Source of the DNA: an uncultured Bacteroidia bacterium
Lineage (GTDB): Bacteria > Bacteroidota > Bacteroidia > Bacteroidales > UBA932
Assembly: GCA_902789445.1 (NCBI GenBank)
Contig: CADAOB010000002.1
Span: 40,334 to 104,333, forward strand
Length of the DNA: 64,000 bases
Reading direction: 5' to 3'
Of the stretch, positions 37,701 through 43,078 are shown piece by piece (position 1 is the stretch's first letter; each line of letters begins with the position of its first letter). The notes beneath the pieces are model-generated. The model worked only from the letters and a program-made list of their open reading frames with translations, had not been told where the DNA came from and searched no databases. Made by a program: the position numbers and the translations under genes.

Positions 37701-37839
37701 CCTCGCAGAAAAAATTGTCAAGGTCGGAAGCCAGGTAATAGGCCAGTTTCTTGTTGTCTGCAATCACGACGTGAAGCGCACCTTCAGGGGCGCGCTTCAC
37801 GGCATTGGCGATATAGACGGCTTTCGCGGAACAGATCAT
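34723..37839 (-). CDS. mfd: Transcription-repair coupling factor Mfd
   Basis: A 1038-residue SF2 translocase that removes stalled RNA polymerase from damaged DNA and recruits UvrA. The UvrB-like N-terminal region is present (PGEFALRGSLVDIFSF, FRIDFFGDEIESIRYF), then the RNA polymerase-interacting region (LRIGDYIVHIDHGVGQYGGL), the ATPase motifs near residue 510 (MDRLVCGDVGFGKTEVAIRAAFK), LLIIDEEQKFGV, and TATPIPRTLQFSLLG, and the C-terminal regulatory domain. Compared with Bacteroides Mfd (about 1110-1120 residues) the first 30-40 residues are missing; the first visible residues correspond to the GL-x-SS region. The ATG overlaps the stop of the upstream Ntn hydrolase gene (ATGA). Confidence 0.95.
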   Translation of the reverse strand: MICSAKAVYIANAVKRAPEGALHVVIADNKKLAYYLASDLDNFFCEENLFYFPSSAEKSEYKKSTALLQRTAALSAIAKWDKSPVVPKEGSYQITRELWKKEIISSTVIVTYTDAMGERVLRTKSIRSSLLTLRKGESLSRDVISETLFNDGFRKADFVTEPGEFALRGSLVDIFSFADEKPFRIDFFGDEIESIRYFNPDNQLSVGDPLPSVAIYPNLDEIGQESEHASFQDILPEGTTIWDLRDNILEKEDDGILPQPAFAKNFEMLSDDIVHHQIQGYKVTILSPNESQTRRLKEILRGVKPDFLPVSLHEGYIDKASRNCYYTDHQIFERYHKISIRRQVERSEQMTINDLNALRIGDYIVHIDHGVGQYGGLVKTNLNGHVQEAVKLIYAGGDVVFVSIHSLHRISKFKSRDGEPPKIYRLGSKAWENLKRNTKSKVKDIAEDLIKLYSERQQARGFAFSPDSYLQQELESSFMYEDTPDQATATEAVKSDMESLHPMDRLVCGDVGFGKTEVAIRAAFKAVCDSKQVAVLVPTTILALQHYQTFKSRLKNFPVNVDYISRLRTAKEIKQIAENIASGKTDILIGTHRILNSSLKFKDLGLLIIDEEQKFGVTAKEKIRQMKTSVDTLTLTATPIPRTLQFSLLGARDLSIINTPPPNRIPVTTEVIRFDEEYLADILNRELERGGQVYFVHNRVDDIFAVRDKLHRICPRAEICVAHGQMEARELEGKILEFINGDYDILLSTTIIENGIDIPNANTMIVDRAHRFGLSDLHQLRGRVGRSNVKAYCYLIVPEEETLTDDARRRIRALEAFSDLGSGFNIAMQDLDIRGAGNLLGAEQSGFMAEMGFETYMRILKEAMNELVLSHSGSAADEEPVLQRIAYEIDTQVDTDLELMIPDWYVNVPSEKIRLYKELDNIKSEDLLKRFTANLADRFGAPVPTPVLELIDVVRLRMTAAKLGIERIVLKNNVMLAWFIADRNHPFFQSERFGTILQQLAARRDGISLQESAGKLHFKVKDVKSVQAAAKVLSSFLV

Positions 37840-39029
37840 AGTGCGGGTTCCTCCGACAGGATGCTGTCGTAGAGACGCTTGATATCTGCCTTGTTGATGC
37901 CGCCGGCTTTATACTGCTTCTCCATCATCTTTTCCGTCACCTGGAAATTGTTATCTTCCAGCCTGTACAGCGCATGCATATAGAACTGGGCCAGTGCAAC
38001 GTCGAAATAGTTCTTTCCATTGCCGCGCTTGAGCGGGAAGATGCGGGCGCGGCGTTCGAGCGCCTGGTCGCACATCAGGCAGTTGTCGCTCTCTGCCGTC
38101 TTGCACATATAAGCCGGCTGGTCGGCACCTGCTGCGGCGAAAAGCGGAATGGCGATACCGCACGGCGGATAACCGAGAACGGTCCACATCACGGTCAGGT
38201 CGGGATTCTCACCTTTTTTGACGCCTTTGACCACAATCGAGGCGCTGGTGCTGCGGCGCGGAATGAAATCCTGGTCGATGTACCAGCCTTCCGGAGCGAG
38301 TTCCGGATTCTTGTTGAGGTCCACGCCCAGCAGCGAGTGATAGTAGCTGCGGGACAGGTTGTTGAAAATCCACTGCGGCGTAACGTCCACACCCTGGATC
38401 CAGGCCTTGTGGAAGATTTCGTTGGCCGTATTGTAACGGACATATCCCATTCCATCATCTTTGCGGCCGGTATAGGAGTGATTGGTATAGACCAGAAAAC
38501 CTTCGGGAGCGATCTTCGGATCGTTCACGTCGATCTTGGTCCAGGTCGTGTTGTTCACTTCATAATAGGCAGCACCGCCTTCCGCGTCGATCACGCCGAA
38601 ATTGGCTTCCACTCCGCGGGGCTTCTTCATCTTGTCGAGCATTTTTTCAAAATCCTGCAGGGTCCGGCAGCTTGCCAGCGCCTGATACATCACAACGCCT
38701 TCCTGATCTTCGAAATCGGCTTTTTCAACCTGAAGATTGTAGGAAGCGGTATTCATGATGGAAAAACCGGCTTCATTGGTTCCGGTCCAGACCTCTCCGT
38801 CCTGGACGTCGCTGTTGACCAGGCCGATGAAACCGTATTTGCGTCCGTTTCCGGCCGGGAAGTATTCGATGCGGTTATTCAGTTCGCCCGTATCGCGGTG
38901 CTTCCAGAGCAGCGGACGACCGTCGGGTGTGGCTTTTCCAGTAAAGATGGCCGAAGTGCAGGCATCGGCTTCCAGGGTGGAAAACAGCGCTGCGATCAGC
39001 AGCAGGCTAAGAGAAAAGATCTTTTTCAT
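37836..39029 (-). CDS. Secreted Ntn hydrolase (C45/choloylglycine-hydrolase-like)
   Basis: A 397-residue exported protein. The signal peptide ends just before Cys24 (LEADA, then [23 protein letters not shown]). A Cys exposed as the new N-terminus is the nucleophile of the Ntn-hydrolase superfamily, and the surrounding sequence resembles the acyl-CoA:6-APA acyltransferase (C45) and bile-salt/penicillin-acylase groups. Supporting segments are [29 protein letters not shown] and VYTNHSY. A periplasmic amide or ester hydrolase is inferred; substrate unknown. It lies inside a DNA-repair operon: its start overlaps the ruvB end by 23 bases and its stop overlaps the mfd start. Confidence 0.78.
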
Positions 39030-40029
39030 AATTGGGATTGAATTTTCCTAAATGTTTGTATGCCAATTCCGTCACGACACGACCACGTGGCGTTCTGGTG
39101 AGGAATCCTTCTTTGATCAGGAAGGGTTCATAGACTTCTTCCAATGTACCGACATCTTCACTGATGGCTGTGGCGATGGTACCGGCCCCGACCGGACCGC
39201 CGCCGAACTTGTCGATGATCGTGCTGAGGATCTTGTTGTCGATGGCGTCCAGGCCGCGGGTGTCGATATTGAGCGCATTGAGTGCGAAACGTGCGATCTC
39301 CAGGTCAATCGTGCCGTTGCCCCGCACCTGGGCGAAATCCCGCACCCGGCGCAGCAGCGAATTGGCGATACGCGGCGTACCGCGGCTGCGGAGGGCGATT
39401 TCGCGGGCTGCCTCGTCTTCGATGCCGATGTCCAGGATGCTGGCGCTTCGCTTGATGATGTTGAAAAGAACCGGGGCGTCATAGTATTCCAGATGGCACT
39501 GGATGCCGAAACGGGCCCGGAGCGGCGAAGTCAGCAGGCCGCTTCGGGTGGTGGCTCCGATCAGCGTGAAGGGATTGAGTGAGATCTGCACGCTGCGCGC
39601 GCCCGGACCCTTGTCGATCATGATATCGATCCGGTAGTCTTCCATCGCGGAATAGAGGTATTCCTCCACAATGGGACTGAGCCGGTGAATCTCATCGATG
39701 AACAGGACATCCCCGTTTTCCAGGGAAGTCAGCAGCCCGGCCAGGTCGCCGGGTTTGTCGAGGATGGGACCGGAAGTGATTTTCAGGTTCACCCCCAGTT
39801 CCTGGGCTACAATATGGGCCAGCGTCGTCTTTCCAAGGCCCGGAGGACCGTGGAAAAGAACATGGTCGAGCGCTTCCCCGCGAAGCATGGCAGCCTTGAC
39901 GAAGATCTTCAGATTGTCGAGCACCTTGTCCTGACCGGAAAACTGGTCGAAGGACTGGGGCCGGATCATCTTGTCGAACTCGTTTTCTTTATAGGTAAGT
40001 TCCGTCCGCGGATTGAATTCGTCTGCCAT
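39007..40029 (-). CDS. ruvB: Holliday junction branch-migration ATPase RuvB
   Basis: A 340-residue AAA+ motor that drives branch migration with RuvA. Motifs include the N-terminal [15 protein letters not shown], Walker [15 protein letters not shown] (near residue 65), Walker [12 protein letters not shown], sensor 1 [19 protein letters not shown] with the Arg finger, and the C-terminal winged helix ([17 protein letters not shown]). The ATG at 40029 is preceded directly by an in-frame GTG; the ATG is preferred. First gene of the ruvB-hydrolase-mfd operon. ruvA is in the same window 20 kb away; ruvC is not in the window. Confidence 0.97.
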
Positions 40030-40041
40030 CACGTCAAATCT

Positions 40042-40332
40042 TTGTCAACAGCACAAATTTAATAAATAAAATTTTTTAAAAAGACTTTCCGGGTATTTCT
40101 TAGCCTGTTGAAACTGTTGATAATTCTTTCTTTCCAAGTTTTCCCCGATTTTTTCAACAGAAAACAAACACCCGTTCCTCCTATGGATGAAACGGGTGTC
40201 GGTTTTGTGGATAATCCATCCGGGACGGTTTGTTGAAAAGCGGCTTGTTGAGAATCGTCGGATAAGTGCGTTCCTGTCTGTCCTTTTTCAACAGCGGCCG
40301 GAAATATCAACAAATTCCCAAGGTTTTCAACT
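40042..40332. other. oriC: Candidate chromosomal replication origin (DnaA-box cluster plus AT-rich tract)
   Basis: The 300-base gap between ruvB and frdB contains one perfect DnaA box, TTATCCACA (minus, 40206-40214), and eight related 9-mers of the form TTNTCAACA or close to it: 40042-40050, 40106-40114 (minus), 40115-40123 (minus, TTATCAACA), 40151-40159, 40231-40239 (minus), 40246-40254 (minus), 40285-40293 and 40304-40312, with a partial one at 40324-40332. An AT-only-like tract at 40054-40080 (AATTTAATAAATAAAA and on) adjoins the cluster and could be the unwinding element. No gene of useful length fits here. An origin role is inferred from motif density; the frd terminator lies inside it. 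Confidence 0.6.
40168..40199 (-). terminator. Terminator of the frdAB operon
   Basis: A 9-bp perfect stem ACACCCGTT/AACGGGTGT with a 14-base loop. On the minus strand it is followed by TTTGTTTTCT. It lies about 130 bases beyond the frdB stop, inside the DnaA-box cluster. Confidence 0.7.
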
Positions 40333-41116
40333 AGTCTTTGAACTTCGCCTTGAGGAATTCCCGGTTGAGGCGGGCGATATGGCTGACCGTAATATGCTTC
40401 GGGCATTCCATTTCGCAGGCACGGGTGTTGGTGCAGGCACCGAAGCCCAGCTCGTCCATCTTGGCTACCATGGCTTTCGCACGGCGTGCGCCTTCGATCT
40501 TGCCTTGCGGAAGCAGGGCGAGCGAACTTACGCGGGCCGCCACGAAGAGCATGGCCGAACCGTTCTTGCAGGTAGCCGCGCAGGCGCCGCAACCGACGCA
40601 GGAGGCTGCATCCATGCTTTCATCGGCATTCTTCTTCGGAATGGGAATCGCATTGGCATCAGGCACACCGCCGGTATTGACGCTGATGAAGCCGCCGGCC
40701 TGCAGGATCTTGTCGTAGGCGCCACGGTCCACGACCAGGTCCTTGATCACCGGGAAACCGCGGCTGCGCCAGGGTTCGATGGTGATGGTGCTGCCATCCT
40801 TGAATTTGCGCATATAGAGCTGGCAGGTGGTCACGCCGCTCTCCGGACCGTGGGCACGGCCGTTGATGTAGAGCGAGCAGGCACCGCAGATACCCTCGCG
40901 GCAGTCATGGTCGAACGACACGGGGCCGCTCTGCTTGCCGTGGCAGCCGGCATCGAACTTGACCGGGTCGATTTTTTCACGGATCAGCTGCTCGTTGAGG
41001 ATATCCATCATCTCCAGGAAAGAAGTGCCTTCCGAGATGTCCTTCACCTGATAGGTCTCAAAGTGTCCTTTGCTTTTCGCGTCTCTCTGACGCCAAACTT
41101 TCAACGTAAAATTCAT
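40331..41116 (-). CDS. frdB: Fumarate reductase/succinate dehydrogenase iron-sulfur subunit
   Basis: A 261-residue electron-transfer subunit that links quinone to the flavoprotein. The plant-type [2Fe-2S] ligands are in [24 protein letters not shown] with a further Cys in GVTTCQLY, and the bacterial ferredoxin-type clusters are in [14 protein letters not shown] (near residue 160) and [15 protein letters not shown] (near residue 228). In anaerobic Bacteroidota the complex reduces fumarate to succinate as a main electron sink. It follows frdA by 18 bases. Direction (reductase rather than dehydrogenase) is inferred from lineage. Confidence 0.94.
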
Positions 41117-41134
41117 ATCACTTCTTTCTAAAGA

Positions 41135-43078
41135 TTAGTCTTTGTAGTTGCGGGTCGCCACGTGAGCGAATTCAAACTTGAGCGGCTCCTTGTGGAGTTC
41201 CGGCGTCTTGTCATCACCCTTGTACTCCCAGGCGGAAACATACATGTAGTTGACATCGTCACGCTTGGTCTCACCTTCTTCGGTCTGCATTTCCTCACGG
41301 AAGTGACCGCCGCAGGATTCATTGCGGTTGAGGGCGTCACGGGCCATCAGTTCGCCGATTTCAAGGAAGTCGGCCACGCGGAGGGCTTTTTCGAGTTCCT
41401 GGTTGAACACGCCCGTCTCACCGGCTACATAGACATTGGACCAGAATTCCTTCTTTAGGTTCTGGATCAGTTCAATGGCTTTCTTCAGGCCGGCTTCGTT
41501 GCGGGCCATGCCGACATATTCCCACATGATGTGGCCCAGTTCCTTGTGGAAAGCATCCACGGTCTTGGTGCCCTTGATGTTCATCAGCTTGTCGATCTTG
41601 GCCTGGACCGCTTTCTCGGCGGCTTCGAATTCCGGCGCGTTGGTGTCGGTCTTCGGTTCCTTGAACTTGCTGGCCAGGTAGTCACCGATGGTGTACGGCA
41701 GGATGAAGTAGCCGTCGGCCAGACCCTGCATCAGGGCCGAAGCGCCGAGGCGGTTGCCGCCGTGGTCGGAGAAGTTGGCCTCACCGATGGCATACAGACC
41801 CGGAATGGTGGTCATCAGGTTGTAGTCAACCCACAGACCGCCCATCGTATAGTGGATGGCCGGATAGATCATCATCGGTTCTTCGTGCGGATCCACGTCG
41901 GTGATTTCCTTGTACATGTCGAAGAGGTTTCCGTAGCGCTGGTCCACGACGTCGCGGCCGAGGCGCTTGAAAGCATCCTGGAAATCGAGGAACACGGCCT
42001 TGCCGGTGTTGTTCACGCCATAACCTGCGTCGCAGCGCTCCTTGGCGGCACGGGAAGCCACGTCACGCGGGACGAGGTTGCCGAAAGCCGGGTAGCGGCG
42101 CTCGAGGTAGTAGTCGCGGTCTTCTTCCGGAATCTGGGAACCTTTGATCTTGCCTTCCTGGAGTTTCTTGGCGTCTTCGAGTTTCTTGGGAACCCAGATG
42201 CGGCCGTCGTTGCGGAGCGATTCGGACATCAGGGTCAGCTTGGACTGCTGGTCCCCGTGGATCGGGATGCAGGTCGGGTGGATCTGCGCGAAGCAGGGAT
42301 TTGCGAAGAATGCACCTTTCTTATAGCACTGCCATGCGGCCGAACCGTTGGAGTTCATGGCATTGGTGCTCAGGAAATAGGTATTGCCGTAACCGCCGGA
42401 AGCCAGGACCACGGCGTGGGCGCCGAAACGCTCGATCTTGCCGTTGGTCAGGTTGCGGGCGATGATGCCTTTGGCTTCGCCATTGATGATGACCAGGTCG
42501 AGCATCTCATGGCGCGGATAAGACTTCACGTGGCCATTGGCGATGGCACGGTTGAGGGCGGCATAGGCACCCAGCAGCAGCTGCTGTCCGGTCTGGCCGC
42601 GGGCGTAGAAGGTACGGGAGACCTGCGCACCGCCGAACGAACGGTTGTCGAGCAGTCCGCCGTAGTCGCGGGCAAAGGGAACGCCCTGGGCGACGCACTG
42701 GTCGATGATGTTGTTGCTCACCTCGGCCAGGCGGTACACGTTGGCTTCACGGCTGCGGTAGTCGCCGCCTTTGATGGTGTCGTAGAACAGACGATAGACG
42801 GAGTCGTTGTCGTTCTGGTAGTTTTTGGCGGCGTTGATACCACCCTGTGCGGCGATGGAGTGCGCACGACGCGGGGAATCGCTGATGCAGAACACCTTGA
42901 CATTGTAACCCAGTTCACCCAGGGAAGCAGCTGCAGACGCTCCGCCCAGACCGGTACCGATCACGATGATCTCCATTTTGCGCTTGTTGGCAGGACTCAC
43001 GACTTTGATGTCGGCTTTATGCTTCGACCATTTCAGTTCGAGCGGTCCTTCCGGAACCTTAGAAATCAATTCAGTCAT
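41135..43078 (-). CDS. frdA: Fumarate reductase/succinate dehydrogenase flavoprotein subunit
   Basis: A 647-residue FAD-binding subunit. The Rossmann motif is [23 protein letters not shown] near residue 37, the His for covalent FAD is in the [17 protein letters not shown] segment (near residue 70), the substrate site follows in [11 protein letters not shown] and the catalytic Arg region in [11 protein letters not shown]. Length and C-terminus match the Bacteroides type, which is longer than the E. coli enzyme. In Bacteroides a cytochrome b anchor gene (frdC) precedes frdA; here the upstream DNA is a promoter and a divergent gene, so the anchor is not adjacent. Confidence 0.95.

Follow-up and report, generated by a model that had tools for sequence, protein, structure and literature searches.

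A predicted chromosomal replication origin upstream of ruvB in an uncultured Bacteroidales lineage

According to the available text of PMC8287927, the basal unwinding system (BUS) of bacterial origins consists of tandem DnaA boxes at most 3 bp apart, placed next to the site of unwinding. Its trio rule calls for a run of three or more DnaA-trios (NAN), counted on the strand that has its 5' end away from the boxes. The same source, in the part available, gives 15% as the share of genomes that have no trios. In Bacteroidetes, an oriC far from dnaA is common according to DoriC, as stated in the accessible part of PMC4755523; therefore, distance between the two is not new in itself. Leading strands are in general richer in G and T (PMC5291525, accessible part).

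Here we analyzed a window, that is, one whole stretch of 64,000 nt, from an uncultured Bacteroidia bacterium (Bacteroidales; UBA932; GCA_902789445.1, contig CADAOB010000002.1, positions 40,334-104,333, forward strand), together with the draft genome it belongs to (2,255,586 bases in 78 contigs, 84.19% complete). All feature coordinates are positions in the window. A first-pass annotation had read the space between ruvB and frdB as a candidate oriC. This reading is supported by a DnaA-box cluster that is unique in the draft genome, by the retention of the cluster in the family and by a switch in corrected strand composition. On this sequence evidence, we predict with high confidence that this Bacteroidales lineage has its chromosomal oriC in the 301-bp gap upstream of ruvB. 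Many relatives very probably keep the predicted start site before ruvB while the other neighbours change.

The DnaA-box cluster and its neighbours

The predicted oriC comprises the whole ruvB-frdB intergenic region (40030-40330, 301 bp), which has a GC content of 39% against about 55-56% in the surrounding 2-kb bins. Its constant neighbour is ruvB (39007-40029, minus strand; Pfam RuvB_N, AAA_lid_4 and RuvB_C). The variable neighbour (40331-41116, minus strand) encodes the iron-sulfur subunit of a fumarate reductase/succinate dehydrogenase with Fer2_3 and Fer4 domains, and is presumably frdB. Three ORFs from the mechanical call (125, 177 and 314 aa) extend into the gap and were taken as shadows of ruvB or frdB. 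No RNA families or tRNAs were found in the window at the thresholds used. Next to ruvB, the minus strand of 37836-39029 encodes a protein of 397 aa; its start is signal-like, with CTSAIFTG close by. We take this protein to be reminiscent of the choloylglycine-hydrolase/NAAA type, and the neighbouring gene on its side away from ruvB to be mfd-like.

The gap contains six exact copies of TTNTCAACA, one TTATCCACA and two one-mismatch copies, distributed over both strands. The box nearest to ruvB, TTGTCAACA (40042-40050, plus strand), lies about 21 bp before the ruvB start; 16 of the 17 aligned genus sequences have the same word at this position and the other has TTTTCAACA. It is followed by an abutting pair on the minus strand, of which TTATCAACA (40115-40123) is the first box and the one-mismatch copy GTTTCAACA (40106-40114) the second. 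The exact-box scan further located TTTTCAACA at 40151-40159 (plus), 40231-40239 (minus) and 40285-40293 (plus), TTCTCAACA at 40246-40254 (minus) and the E. coli-consensus box TTATCCACA at 40206-40214 (minus), while the one-mismatch scan added ATATCAACA at 40304-40312 (plus). The perfect minus-strand box at 40206 and the eight near-identical 9-mers on both strands described in the first-pass annotation were thus recovered, the eight being the six exact and two one-mismatch copies beside TTATCCACA.

In the window, TTNTCAACA occurs 14 times against 1.48 expected (0/100 shuffles reach 14), and six of these 14 sites fall within 40042-40293. Dinucleotide-preserving shuffles of the 301-bp gap contained 0.06 boxes on average and two at most, and none of 5000 reached seven. 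All 69 TTNTCAACA sites of the draft genome were enumerated and a second cluster was absent. The next-closest pairs were at least about 850 bp apart as judged by eye, except for one site that lies within ruvB, 583 bp away from the edge of the cluster. The E. coli-type TTATNCACA had 19 scattered matches in the draft. Equally dense 9-mer clusters at other loci, which the first-pass annotation had named as counter-evidence, were found nowhere in the draft genome. The cluster is thus the only and densest one in this draft, which, being in 78 contigs and 84% complete, leaves an absent part where a better cluster could sit.

Internal anatomy and the DnaA protein

We aligned 17 distinct sequences from 23 genus loci with a gap of 300-320 bp, leaving out genus members with longer gaps. 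Column identity was 0.909 where boxes cover at least 30% of the rows and 0.721 where they never do, a difference that arises partly by construction because the columns were picked by exact boxes. The best-kept block, read on the minus strand, is TTATCAACA-GTTTCAACA-GG-CTAAGAAATA (40123 to 40094), followed by the AT tract (40082-40055) and then by the box TTGTCAACA (40050-40042). The abutting pair (40106-40123) is directed at the AT tract and ruvB, as seen in the genus alignment and in counts over upstream sequences. The strongly conserved element GG-CTAAGAAATA (40094-40105, minus strand) separates the pair from the tract. The latter, described earlier as 27 bases of almost only A and T, is by our measurement an uninterrupted A/T run of 28 bp (40055-40082), and its composition and its place beside the boxes make it a candidate DNA unwinding element. 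At 56.2, its 50-bp duplex stability is below the mean for the window (74.8, sd 5.4); the window minimum of 51.4 lies elsewhere.

Among 83 distinct ruvB-upstream sequences, drawn from 119 and including the frdB loci of named records, 44 had a box pair (spacing 8-10) directed toward ruvB within 250 bp of the gene and two had one in the opposite direction; these counts are not independent, since many of the 83 sequences are from close relatives. None of 20 mononucleotide-shuffled sets contained a pair directed at ruvB.

The promoter-like word TAAATTTG of ruvB (40054-40061, minus strand) lies 32 bp before the gene and overlaps the AT tract. A position-conserved box follows this TAnnTTTG word after 3 bases (40042-40061), and given that proximity DnaA may control ruvB as well. 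Between the box groups, still inside the predicted origin, a hairpin followed by a T-rich stretch is found at 40162-40205 on the minus strand (-23.7 kcal/mol, z -5.4). Its stem is conserved across the genus alignment, where inspection by eye shows paired changes. A simple terminator scan reported nothing, this hairpin included; it is probably the terminator of the frd transcript.

The two boxes of the pair abut and so lie within the spacing of the BUS. For the trio count, the strand with its 5' end distal to the boxes was chosen from the '5'-tail' scaffolds of PMC8287927 and the 5'-CTA-3' reading of PMC8235120, both as given in the available portions of these papers, and runs were counted from starts up to 7 bases past the second box. 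By reading, the window has a run of one (CTA). DnaA-trios were not above the shuffle level: 7 of 44 sequences reach three, with a mean run of 1.73 against 1.60 in shuffled sequences. The conserved CTAAGAAATA did not hold as a trio array in this test. On the opposite strand, 33 of 44 sequences reach three A-centred triplets, with a mean run of 3.89 against 2.93 in shuffled sequences; we note this as a lead only.

These elements suggest how the site might work. DnaA would bind the scattered TTATCAACA and TTTTCAACA boxes and nucleate on the abutting pair. From the pair it would be guided over the short conserved spacer to the AT tract of 28 bp, the putative site of melting. The helicase would be loaded at this tract, and forks would leave in both directions.

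A search for dnaA in four genomes gave one match above the family cut-off in each. In the genome under study, dnaA is on C10, another contig than the cluster, and in the relative G003 it is on C11 and the ruvB locus on C10. It lies at 76 kb in G042, where the cluster is at 672 kb, and at 1.63 Mb in the complete genome of Bacteroidales bacterium CF, where ruvB is at 16 kb. The gene is thus on another contig or hundreds of kb off, consistent with the earlier placement of the origin away from dnaA.

The C-terminal domain of the DnaA protein matches Bac_DnaA_C and carries DHATV where the five solved chains with alignments shown (six matched) have DHTTV; G003, G042 and CF have DHATV too. DnaA ends were also obtained from 18 of 60 genomes (L320-L337), 17 outside the family and one (G081) inside it, and gave 15 clean frames. 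Outside the family 13 of these have DHATV and one DHSTV, and G081 has DHSTV. We assume that the position varying between DHATV and DHTTV contacts the DnaA box. The DHATV change could explain the C-to-A change in the box core, from TTATCCACA to TTATCAACA. This box shift with its candidate matching residue is directly testable using TTATCAACA, TTATCCACA and TTATTAACA. A wider proposal would join three elements: an origin anchored, in this family, at the ruvB start with its other neighbours variable; a shifted box TTATCAACA that corresponds to the DHATV/DHSTV change in the recognition helix across the order sample; and opening via the abutting pair and spacer outside the published trio rule. Taken as a whole, this combination is tentative and we consider it rather unlikely.

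Conservation in relatives and strand composition

An frdB search gave matches in 64 of 80 genomes, our own included. A second collection of 80 named loci, titled Bacteroidales or similar and overlapping with the former set, includes Candidatus Cacconaster, Candidatus Cryptobacteroides and the complete genome of CF. Over 110 loci, frdB was followed by ruvB on the same strand with 260-601 bp between them in 40, and in 27 (two with partial ruvB matches) ruvB was on the same strand as frdB and its start lay 3.8-5.8 kb upstream of where frdB ends. The remaining loci had the genes on opposite strands (1/110), a 2.1-kb gap (1/110) or no ruvB within the fetched stretch (41/110). Many of the 27 loci with a distant ruvB have boxes immediately before ruvB. 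G029, a 98%-complete genus member without any frdB match, has four boxes in 191 bp (C1:247,682-247,873), about 0.9 kb upstream of its ruvB (248,740). Since many relatives either lack frdB or have it on the far side of ruvB, while the cluster stays with ruvB, the anchor is ruvB. The placement between ruvB and frdB given in the first-pass annotation holds in the window; as a definition it was dropped in favour of 'upstream of ruvB', frdB being replaceable and ruvB constant. Genus members without frdB beside ruvB included G029, L229-L231, L233 and L235, which suggests that frdB was lost in a subclade of the genus. Another genome, G013, carries two different full-length ruvB genes, one on C56 (82% identity to the query) and one on C28 (73%). 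The contig of the second also has an frdB fragment, and the finding represents either contamination or a duplicate.

For a survey based on ruvB, we used the best 30 of 40 genus genomes, the best 30 of 79 family genomes (8 already in the set) and the best 30 of 149 order genomes, and added the ruvB stretches of G042, CF and G242. Loci with at least 400 bp of upstream sequence were scored as having a cluster when the 1.2 kb preceding ruvB held two or more exact boxes inside a 400-bp span; L238 was grouped with the genus, and the genus loci L225 and L226 were dropped because their upstream sequences were too short. Clusters were present in 28 of the 29 genus loci, our own among them, and in 21 of the 26 from the family's other genera. 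The 27 order loci outside the family had none, and the origin site of those other families was not found. The first 1.2 kb of the ruvB genes, used as a control, gave 0/55 in the family and 1/27 in the rest of the order (0/28, 0/27 and 1/27 with L238 counted among the other genera). The loci below two boxes were L230 in the genus and L239, L240, L243, L255 and CF (L151) in the family. Upstream of its ruvB, CF has 13 sites in about 350 bp, one of them exact and the others with a single mismatch; among them is an overlapping pair directed at ruvB, with one mismatch in each box.

Raw GC skew in the window has its cumulative minimum near 24 kb and not at the cluster, and was set aside as uninformative; third codon positions show a strong coding-strand bias. 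We therefore called ORFs, took third codon positions, regressed out the coding strand and searched within 300 kb for the single split that best separated values of GC skew minus AT skew. Splits are given relative to the cluster with 95% bootstrap intervals. For the single-contig genomes G042, G242 and CF, samples of 30, 20 and 30 stretches were used, each at most 20 kb long. The split was at -6.2 to -3.9 kb in our own contig (interval -65 to +12, wide), +7.5 to +8.5 kb in G003 (-17 to +34), +7.2 to +8.2 kb in G029 (-5 to +21), -10.1 to -8.3 kb in G042 (-22 to -0.5, the cluster being 0.5 kb outside), -1.7 to +0.8 kb in G242 (-13 to +6; about -5 kb with a 400-kb range) and -0.7 to +1.9 kb in CF (-14 to +17). 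Gene-order permutations reached the combined statistic in 24/2000 cases for our own contig and in 0/2000 for each of the other five.

The combined switch thus lies within about 10 kb of the locus, which is also about its resolution, in all six contigs or sampled chromosomes, clearly in the five relatives and weakly in our own contig. All six have negative values on the left arm and positive ones on the right, the right side gaining third-position G and T. Run in this corrected form, the skew test proposed in the first-pass annotation placed the switch at or near the orthologous locus and did not refute the origin reading. Taken singly, the measures were less regular. In our own contig neither was significant (GC alone 740/2000, AT alone 373/2000). 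GC alone split G003 at the contig end (257 kb) and G029 at about +16 kb (15/2000), and AT alone split CF at -78 kb (22/2000) and G242 at about -40 kb. Within arms, splits significant at the 5% level were seen only in CF, on both sides, and in G242, on the left.

The same annotation had read gene orientation as pointing away from the site. This applies only locally. In our own contig 18 of 28 genes within 20 kb point away, and 40 of 73 within 100 kb, which is near random; the other five gave 71/152, 82/149, 76/143, 58/121 and 87/158 within 100 kb. Furthermore, frdB and frdA (40331-43078) read leftwards through the cluster. Gene orientation was accordingly rejected as origin evidence beyond 20 kb.

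Alternative readings and comparison with known origins

A DnaA-binding regulatory or titration site, either datA-like or serving control of the ruvB promoter by DnaA, with the true origin elsewhere, would suit the position-conserved box 3 bases after the promoter-like word and the way in which the cluster tracks ruvB rather than frdB. It fits poorly with a combined switch within about 10 kb in six of six sequences (one weakly) and with the lack of any other cluster in the draft genome. The G029 cluster, at about 0.9 kb from ruvB, is also far for simple promoter control, and we regard a site of this kind as improbable. The same splits might indicate an origin nearby, within about 10 kb but outside the gap, because the best ones are offset by up to 10 kb and the G042 interval just excludes the cluster. 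The offsets, however, differ in direction from genome to genome, and in two of the six they are no larger than 2 kb. Moreover, no other dense box cluster was found in the window or in the scanned stretches of G042, G003, CF, G029 and G242, that of CF having no exact-box cluster at all. An origin next to the gap is hence highly improbable. As the gap is AT-rich compared with its surroundings, a chance gathering of AT-rich words in a low-GC intergenic stretch was also considered. The shuffles of the gap never came near seven boxes, and the retention of the cluster in most family loci examined speaks strongly against chance, which leaves this explanation a negligible probability.

With oriC in the gap as the preferred reading, a located origin makes it possible to estimate growth rates from peak-to-trough ratios and to check assemblies by skew in an uncultured lineage. 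Judging by record titles, its named relatives are mostly from the guts of ruminants and other animals. The many species sharing one anchor gene also form a comparative series on how origin boxes turn over while the core stays.

The element is of a known kind, an oriC. In the literature searched, none of the matches listed, viewed mostly at listing level, placed an origin at ruvB. Elizabethkingia meningoseptica is a point of comparison within Bacteroidota. The predicted oriC of strain G4076, as described in the available text of PMC8994065, likewise has boxes with at most one mismatch to TTATCCACA and lies far from dnaA, but it has three boxes, and ruvB is named in that text in a gene table only. 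The predicted oriC of Prevotella intermedia OMA14, in the accessible part of PMC4755523, resembles ours in being from Bacteroidales, in its GC-skew transition and multiple DnaA boxes and in its distance from dnaA; that part does not name its flanking genes, and outside the present family ruvB-upstream clusters were seen in 0/27 order loci. Compared with the BUS of B. subtilis and bacterial oriC, as far as described in the available parts of PMC6669920 and PMC8287927, our site shares the box cluster, tandem boxes with the upstream one nearer consensus, a short spacer and an AT-rich tract past the pair. It differs in that the commonest box is TTATCAACA/TTTTCAACA and not TTATCCACA, that the window has no three-trio run on the published strand, and that the cluster is not beside dnaA. 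A further counterpart is the complete genome of the family member CF (CP006772), in which boxes are degenerate and frdB lies about 5.6 kb beyond ruvB, but which has the combined switch just upstream of ruvB and a box pair directed toward that gene.
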